This document shows positions 13,476 to 34,026 of a DNA stretch of 64,000 bases, piece by piece (within the stretch, counting starts at the first letter, position 1; the number at the start of each line of letters is the position of its first letter). The notes under the pieces are model-generated. The model had not been told where the DNA came from. It made no database searches and saw nothing but the letters and a program-made list of their open reading frames with translations. The stretch is from the NCBI RefSeq assembly GCF_045679555.1, contig NC_092094.1, positions 31,092,552-31,156,551 of the forward strand. The letters are read 5' to 3'. The stretch comes from Salvelinus alpinus. Its lineage: Eukaryota; Chordata; Actinopteri; Salmoniformes; Salmonidae. The translations under genes and the position numbers were made by a program.

Positions 13476-16400
13476 TCACTTCCTGGCAGCCAGCTCAGCG
13501 TTGACTTCATCCTCTGCTTTGAGGCCGTGCCATTGAGCAATGGGCCGGCGGGGGTTGGCCAGCATGTCTGACCAATGACGGAGCTCTGTGCCGCTGCTGG
13601 CTCCGCCGAGAAAAACCTTCCCGATAGCGTCATTCTTCCCAATCTTATCATAGTCCAACACTGTCACTGCTACCTGCACCTTCTACACACACAAACACAG
13701 ACACAAACCTATGTTCGAAGGGCCTCAATGAGGAAGGATTCATTGTAGTAAGGGATAAGAGATAGAGAGTGCGTGTGTGTTTGTGGGTGTTTTTGTGTGG
13801 TGAGAGAGCATACCTGTATCTGTTCGAAGGGCACCTCGAAGCTGAAGGACTCATTGTAGTAAGGGTTGAGAGATAGAGAGTGTGTGTGTGGTGGGGTGTG
13901 AGTGTACCTGTATCTGTTTGAAAGGCACCTCGAAGCTGAAGGACTCATTGTAGTAAGGGATGAGAGATAGAGAGTGTGTGTGTGTGTGTGGTGAGAGAGC
14001 ATACCTGTATCTGTTCGAAGGGCACCTCGAAGCTGAAGGACTCATTGTAGTAAGGGTTGAGAGATAGAGAGTGTGTGTGTGGTGGGGTGTGAGTGTACCT
14101 GTATCTGTTCGAAGGGCACCTCGAAGCTGAAGGACTCGTTGTAGTAAGGGTTGAGAGATAGAGAGTGTGTGTGTGGTGGGGTGTGAGTGTACCTGTATCT
14201 GTTCGAAGGGCACCTCGAAGCTGAAGGACTCGTTGTAGTAAGGGATGAGAGATAGAGAGTGTGTGTGTGGTGGGGTGTGAGTGTACCTGTATCTGTTCGA
14301 AGGGCACCTCGAAGCTGAAGGACTCATTGTAGTAAGGGATGAGAGATAGAGAGTGTGTGTGTGGTGGGGTGTGAGTGTACCTGTATCTGTTCGAAGGGCA
14401 CCTCGAAGCTGAAGGACTCGTTGTAGTAAGGGATGAGAGATAGAGAGTGTGTGTGTGGTGGGGTGTGAGTGTACCTGTATCTGTTCGAAGGGCACCTCGA
14501 AGCTGAAGGACTCATTGTAGTAAGGGTTGAGAGATAGAGAGTGTGTGTGTGGTGGGGTGTGAGTGTACCTGTATCTGTTCGAAGGGCACCTCGAAGCTGA
14601 AGGACTCATTGTAGTAAGGGATGAGAGATAGAGAGTGTGTGTGTGGTGGGGTGTGAGTGTACCTGTATCTGTTCGAAGGGCACCTCGAAGCTGAAGGACT
14701 CATTGTAGTAAGGGTTGAGAGATAGAGAGTGTGTGTGTGGTGGGGTGTGAGTGTACCTGTATCTGTTCGAAGGGCACCTCGAAGCTGAAGGACTCATTGT
14801 AGTAAGGGATGAGAGATAGAGAGTGTGTGTGTGGTGGGGTGTGAGTGTACCTGTATCTGTTCGAAGGGCACCTCGAAGCTGAAGGACTCATTGTAGTAAG
14901 GGTTGAGAGATAGAGAGTGTGTGTGTGGTGGGGTGTGAGTGTACCTGTATCTGTTCGAAGGGCACCTCGAAGCTGAAGGACTCATTGTAGTAAGGGTTGA
15001 GAGATAGAGAGTGTGTGTGTGGTGGGGTGTGAGTGTACCTGTATCTGTTCGAAGGGCACCTCGAAGCTGAAGGACTCGTTGTAGTAAGGGATGAGAGATA
15101 GAGAGTGTGTGTGTGGTGGGGTGTGAGTGTACCTGTATCTGTTCGAAGGGCACCTCGAAGCTGAAGGACTCGTTGTAGTAAGGGATGAGAGATAGAGAGT
15201 GTGTGTGTGGTGGGGTGTGAGTGTACCTGTATCTGTTCGAAGGGCACCTCGAAGCTGAAGGACTCGTTGTAGTAAGGGATGAGAGATAGAGAGTGTGTGT
15301 GTGGTGGGGTGTGAGTGTACCTGTATCTGTTCGAAGGGCACCTCGAAGCTGAAGGACTCATTGTAGTAAGGGATGAGAGATAGAGAGTGTGTGTGTGGTG
15401 GGGTGTGAGTGTACCTGTATCTGTTCGAAGGGCACCTCGAAGCTGAAGGACTCATTGTAGTAAGGGATGAGAGATAGAGAGTGTGTGTGTGGTGGGGTGT
15501 GAGTGTACCTGTATCTGTTCGAAGGGCACCTCGAAGCTGAAGGACTCGTTGTAGTAAGGGATGAGAGATAGAGAGTGTGTGTGTGGTGGGGTGTGAGTGT
15601 ACCTGTATCTGTTCGAAGGGCACCTCGAAGCTGAAGGACTCGTTGTAGTAAGGGATGAGAGATAGAGAGTGTGTGTGTGGTGGGGTGTGAGTGTACCTGT
15701 ATCTGTTCGAAGGGCACCTCGAAGCTGAAGGACTCGTTGTAGTAAGGGATGAGAGATAGAGAGTGTGTGTGTGGTGGGGTGTGAGTGTACCTGTATCTGT
15801 TCGAAGGGCACCTCGAAGCTGAAGGACTCGTTGTAGTAAGGGATGAGAGATAGAGAGTGTGTGTGTGGTGGGGTGTGAGTGTACCTGTATCTGTTCGAAG
15901 GGCACCTCGAAGCTGAAGGACTCGTTGTAGTAAGGGATGAGAGATAGAGAGTGTGTGTGTGGTGGGGTGTGAGTGTACCTGTATCTGTTCGAAGGGCACC
16001 TCGAAGCTGAAGGACTCATTGTAGTAAGGGATGAGAGATAGAGAGTGTGTGTGTGGTGGGGTGTGAGTGTACCTGTATCTGTTCGAAGGGCACCTCGAAG
16101 CTGAAGGACTCATTGTAGTAAGGGATGAGAGATAGAGAGTGTGTGTGTGGTGGGGTGTGAGTGTACCTGTATCTGTTCGAAGGGCACCTCGAAGCTGAAG
16201 GACTCGTTGTAGTAAGGGATGAGAGATAGAGCGTGTGTGTGTGGTGGGGTGTGAGTGTACCTGTATCTGTTCGAAGGGCACCTCGAAGCTGAAGGACTCA
16301 TTGTAGTAAGGGTTGAGAGATAGAGAGTGTGTGTGTGGTGGGGTGTGAGTGTACCTGTATCTGTTCGAAGGGCACCTCGAAGCTGAAAGACTCATTGTAG

Positions 16401-34026: not shown

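Follow-up and report, generated by a model that had tools for sequence, protein, structure and literature searches.

The last intron of a synaptotagmin gene in Salvelinus alpinus raises the question of how a coding gene is spliced when the end of one of its exons, with the 5' splice site attached, is repeated close to two hundred times ahead of a single 3' splice site. The window, i.e., the whole stretch of DNA analysed here, comprises 64,000 nucleotides (assembly GCF_045679555.1, contig NC_092094.1, positions 31,092,552 to 31,156,551), and coordinates are positions within it unless another sequence is named.

Structure of the gene and of its last intron

The synaptotagmin gene is encoded on the minus strand (34026-13476), and its model consists of eight coding exons with 410 codons followed by TGA, with GT/AG at all seven introns separating coding exons; the reading frame is intact. 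The exon containing the ATG (33885..34026) is followed by exons encoding the membrane-spanning segment, assigned by eye, and linker (33489..33661), the linker to C2A (33142..33264), C2A (32783..32950 and 32516..32683) and the start of C2B (32178..32295), the last three being assigned by domain search as well as by the gene model. Exon 8 (31956..32089; 134 nt, C2B) and the last coding exon (13476..13682; end of C2B and TGA stop) complete the gene. The deduced protein matched Pfam C2 in two stretches (3.9e-60), corresponding to two C2 domains, and its nearest solved relatives are synaptotagmins, synaptotagmin-1 being the closest (1.1e-155), which identifies it as a synaptotagmin; the NCBIfam search returned no family. 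As to subtype, the best solved matches were to SYT1, in a comparison where SYT5 is represented by C2A entries only, and the genes adjoining the array gene suggest a human 19q13-like block.

The last intron (31955-13683, minus strand, 18,273 nt) is array throughout, except for the final stretch before the acceptor. Tandem Repeats Finder placed the array at 13811..32014 with a period of 94, 193.7 copies, 97% matches and a score of 34228, the highest of the 49 rows obtained for the window; together with the 410-codon model, this bears out the original prediction of a 94-bp array occupying the final intron of a synaptotagmin gene that is itself intact. The unit combines ~42 bp of intronic sequence with the terminal 52 bp of exon 8, in this order, and closes with CAG|GTA. 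Its make-up of exon end, donor and ~42 bp of intron had thus been foreseen, and what needs qualifying is the exon-derived part, which measures 52 bp from CCC or 59 bp when the slightly variable CTCTCAA ahead is counted, the final 52-59 bp of exon 8 being the first such part. Counting the true exon end, 194 CAG|GTA donors face one acceptor, whose AG (13683..13684) is common to all of them, in agreement with the approximately 200 donors initially expected. The further claim that every unit carries the same donor is correct for the 176 of 194 that read GTACAC and fails for the 18 that read GTATGC. Donor spacings (n=193) are 94 (177), 93 (12) or 97 (4) nt, and the 193 complete units fall into 25 sequence types. 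Donor 1 occupies 31954..31955, while the last donor (194), of the GTATGC type, is located at 13812..13813, 131 nt from the acceptor; a degenerate copy of the exon end without intact donor, supported by a shuffle test, follows the last unit (13709..13758).

Searching with a 46-base junction core gave 168 exact matches in the 2.37-Gb assembly and 168 in the window; exact copies are hence confined to this array, and a dispersed satellite is ruled out. Among the matches listed (the first ~100 of 168), only one strand is represented. With head-to-tail units within the range of ~10-100 bp and a high copy number, the array is a minisatellite (VNTR-type) whose unit spans a splice junction. The opinion that no standard feature class exists for such an object was not borne out, and further junction-spanning arrays occur in the genome, one of them in the window.

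Junction-spanning arrays elsewhere in the genome

This second donor-type array (1..487, minus strand; Tandem Repeats Finder) consists of copies of a VWD exon terminus with AAAG|GTAACAC, spaced 36-44 bp apart. It belongs to a VWD-C8-TIL gene and extends as far as the edge of the window, past which the genome is given as N, so that the 12 donors counted are a minimum. Acceptor-side arrays were found in the synaptotagmin paralogs C37 and C11, where a 63-bp unit precedes the same exon in 7 and 2 copies (L010 4060-4450 and L003 about 1590-1730, respectively), and in a synaptotagmin-like C2 gene on C5, with 25 exact copies of a 48-bp unit (L035 1-560, with L043; C5 about 32005538-32006860). Most array copies of C37 end in CAGTAG, a would-be stop in the exon frame.

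The junction survey covered 150 junctions (61 donors and 89 acceptors) in 29 of 30 sequences, the ~195 further in-window matches of the main array having been excluded before this count. Outside the window, clear copies were detected at three of 128 junctions, namely those of C37 and C11, which are one duplicate pair, and of C5; within the window, the survey recovered the main array as well as that of the VWD gene, which was scored at two internal copies. None of 54 junctions of kinase exons (39 loci) had clear copies. Overall, arrays were not enriched at junctions: 3 of 182 junctions outside the window carried one, against 118 of 1500 random probes, the probes being one-sided and including microsatellites. 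The junction calls are heuristic, made with a scoring matrix; some exons may have been counted twice, and synaptotagmin-like genes are over-represented in the first set. Arrays are accordingly frequent in this genome and show no enrichment at junctions, where they are, if anything, rarer.

Other repeats were noted in the window. At 799-906 (minus strand), 27 GAGT units begin right at a donor of the VWD gene (CTG|GTAAGTGAGTGAGT), and this tetranucleotide run produces many GTGAGT donor-like sites. One 28-bp repeat (TACAGGCTCACATATCACTATCACAATG) is present at three sites (5568-6317, 8949-9231 and 12065-12121), and GC-rich 27-bp arrays at 7129-8481 contain several open frames on both strands (450 aa on the plus strand; 361 and 356 aa on the minus strand).

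Origin and growth of the array

The nearest relative of the array gene (C9) lies on contig C15 (L009), with 98.5% identity in exon 8 and 85-96% in the other exons, and it looks like the whole-genome duplicate. Its intron at the array position is only 124 nt long and aligns with the stretch from donor 194 to the acceptor of C9 (131 nt) at 77% mean column identity over 141 columns, which indicates a short intron that was enlarged by 193 units. The position of this intron is common to all ten other synaptotagmin genes examined, with lengths from ~100 to 5,200 nt as judged by the exon positions. The C15 copy is broken: it is frameshifted, with the first stop at codon 109 and 21 stops in all, and the acceptor of its exon 3 is AC in place of AG. 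The array gene is thus the intact member of the pair, and its reading as a dead gene is ruled out, it being the unarrayed duplicate that has decayed.

The degenerate exon-end copy of C9 was equalled by none of 2000 shuffles. A corresponding relic in the C15 intron is weak alone (equalled or exceeded by 32 of 2000 shuffles; in the survey test it scored 10.8, the best shuffle reaching 10.6) and shares its register with that of C9, while the same test on six other paralog introns revealed no clear exon-end relic (lowest 21/500). These alignments suggest that the exon-end duplication likely predates the gene duplication, and that an old short intron, probably already with one such duplication, expanded in C9 after the copies separated. 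At the breakpoints of both this and the VWD array, ACAC- or CTCTC-like letters of the exon match the CA/CT-rich start of the intron, and slippage between the two may have started the arrays.

As for growth, units 55 positions apart are of the same type in 30% of comparisons, compared with 16% by chance, and a 20-unit block recurs unchanged 25 units away, both of which indicate duplication of blocks of tens of units. In the 176 main-class units, variation per site is 1.11% in the exon-derived and 1.03% in the intron-derived part; the two being equally variable, the exon copies bear no mark of selection.

The same features bear on whether the copy number is wrong or the array itself a product of assembly. 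So long an array is difficult to assemble, and the VWD array adjoins a stretch of N. Against this, the 25 unit types, the three unit lengths and the block structure are unlike the result of simple over-collapse or of looped assembly, the flanks are unique on both sides, exact copies exist nowhere else, and smaller junction arrays are present at independent loci, all of which makes an artefact quite unlikely.

Strength of the splice signals

Splice sites were scored against 90 acceptors and 49 donors of this genome, sets that had been chosen with a scoring matrix. On this scale, the CAG|GTACAC donor is middling (55th percentile of 49 donors), the GTATGC decoys score above it (88th percentile), and the shared acceptor is rather weak (21st percentile). 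The intron hence presents, at the sequence level, 194 credible tandem donors for one acceptor.

The best AG within the unit reaches only the 3rd percentile of the 90 acceptors. With no AG of normal acceptor strength, the units cannot serve as internal exons, and internal mini-exons are ruled out on these scores. Exon duplication with mutually exclusive exons, where the unit contains an acceptor, the whole exon and a donor, is likewise rejected, given that the exon part of each unit is confined to the final 52-59 of 134 bases and that its best AG is this same poor one. Recursive splice sites, defined by a strong acceptor immediately before the donor (polypyrimidine-CAG|GT), are excluded too, the AG at the unit end scoring -5.93 (0th percentile).

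U1 sites keep long introns free of premature ends, a process known as telescripting, and the 193 extra U1 sites could in principle serve in this way or titrate U1. Neither AATAAA nor ATTAAA occurs in the 18,273-nt intron, and CAG|GTA is kept in 194 of 194 units, although the latter follows from the manner of counting. Low complexity is sufficient to explain the missing polyA signals, array variation is neutral, and C15 and the other paralogs manage without an array, so a role as U1 dock appears extremely improbable.

Consequences of donor choice

Use of donor k adds (k-1) x 94 nt to the mRNA, and not k x 94 nt as first proposed. Transcripts using donor 2 or any later donor read into an identical TGA, located in the first extra unit 54 nt beyond the true junction (31899..31901, minus strand; frame-2 stop, offset 188 from the exon start). 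Translation of the donor 2-12 transcripts gave one and the same 360-aa protein, in which C2B is cut and 18 false residues form the tail, and donors beyond 12 give this product as well, since all of them include the first extra unit. A ladder of C2B variants is thereby ruled out. The splice heterogeneity suggested for C2B is supported only in part, and fails for a series of longer forms. Donor 1 is the sole donor that keeps the full reading frame, and the intact 410-codon frame, together with the truncation caused by all later donors, indicates that its use is what selection maintains.

Premature stops trigger decay when they lie more than 50-55 nt upstream of the last junction. In the donor 2 transcript, the distance from the stop to this junction is 37 nt, and from donor 3 onward it is at least 131 nt; by this rule most RNAs from donor 2 and beyond would decay. 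In terms of distance, only donors 1-4 yield an exon of at most 500 nt, and only donors 193 and 194 lie less than 250 nt from the acceptor (225 and 131 nt, respectively); the remaining 188 are far from upstream and downstream partners alike.

Taken together, the locus is probably best explained by a short intron that gained a minisatellite, was expanded in one duplicate and is still spliced from donor 1. A last intron of ~125 nt would have acquired a minisatellite with the exon-intron junction itself as unit, and block duplications would have brought it to 193 units in one of the two gene duplicates. The spliceosome would pair donor 1 with the acceptor 134 nt upstream, by exon definition and by co-transcriptional choice on a first-come-first-served basis, and the other 193 donors, having no acceptors of their own, would be mostly passive decoys. 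Leakage to these decoys would lead to the C2B-truncated 360-aa product, and the array would be tolerated rather than selected. Analogy lends good support to this proposed mechanism of tolerance. Five minigenes with two identical donors spliced solely from the upstream donor under exon definition (PMC9225289), and equal tandem donors were chosen first come-first served across contexts (PMC6783452). On the strength of these systems donor 1 is expected to dominate, which agrees with the initial idea that exon definition might favour the first donor and speaks against the unusual splice heterogeneity proposed along with it.

Several observations run against dominance of donor 1. The downstream donor is favoured in ~60% of unfiltered human events, short introns prefer the donor closest to the acceptor, and two weak donors competing in larger exons cause the exon to be skipped, as reported in the same minigene study (PMC9225289). 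In the array, the CAG|GTACAC donor is outscored by the GTATGC decoys and the acceptor is weak; donors 193 and 194 are close to it, and the ancestral intron is short enough for intron definition. Under intron definition, these two donors would pair with the acceptor, and an 18-kb exon tail would be retained, leaving no full-length protein. Their distances of 131 and 225 nt and the downstream preference of short introns agree with this outcome; however, it demands an exon of more than 18 kb, and the frame is intact in the array gene and broken in the unarrayed duplicate, so we regard it as very unlikely.

A regular minor use of donors 2-4, supplying a C2B-truncated synaptotagmin in a share set by copy number or by splicing factors, seems doubtful. 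These donors produce exons of 228-416 nt, still definable, and the donor 2 stop is inside the 50-55-nt limit, so decay may be escaped. On the other hand, published tests with equal donors show a preference for the first site, and the position of the stop from donor 3 onward predicts decay.

Comparison with known systems and significance

The ABCA7 intronic VNTR (PMC5954066) and CeRep25B in introns of C. elegans (PMC4039745) are, like the C9 array, intronic tandem repeats linked to splicing; in the available text of these papers their units are not described as copies of a junction, whereas each C9 unit brings an exon end and a donor. Competition of several donors for one acceptor is likewise known from designed tandem 5' splice sites (PMC6783452) and from GYNGYN donors (PMC1779574), in both cases with two sites, designed in the former and a few bases apart in the latter, as against 194 here. 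The closest parallel in geometry is that of the minigenes in which identical donors lie at differing distances from both partners (PMC9225289); those are laboratory constructs with two donors, whereas the C9 array is a natural series in which exon length would range from 134 to 18,276 nt. Within the genome itself, the VWD, C37/C11 and C5 arrays share a tandem unit that spans a splice junction of a coding exon, on a much smaller scale than the 194 donors of C9 (at least 12 donors, 7 and 2 acceptors, and 25 exact acceptor copies, respectively). A phrase-dependent search of open PMC papers found no description of a junction-spanning intronic array. The minisatellite is a known kind of object, and its scale is what stands out.

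Its donors could also act as a splicing dial tuned by copy number, their number and position setting the shares of full-length and C2B-truncated synaptotagmin, which would differ between individuals owing to the rapid growth and contraction of arrays of this type; we consider this unlikely. If true, it would also apply to the other junction-spanning minisatellites of this genome, and donor-type arrays would be nearly harmless, acceptor-type arrays not, given that equal tandem acceptors showed no first-site preference (PMC6783452).

The array represents a natural graded version of the two-donor test. Its 194 near-identical donors are distinguished chiefly by distance, the first lying 134 nt downstream of the upstream acceptor and the last 131 nt short of the downstream one. 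It demonstrates that one of two gene duplicates can remain intact despite ~150-fold growth of an intron, and that coding sequence can be captured by repeats jointly with splice signals. If junction arrays vary between individuals, they would contribute splice variation that has been overlooked in repeat-rich fish genomes.
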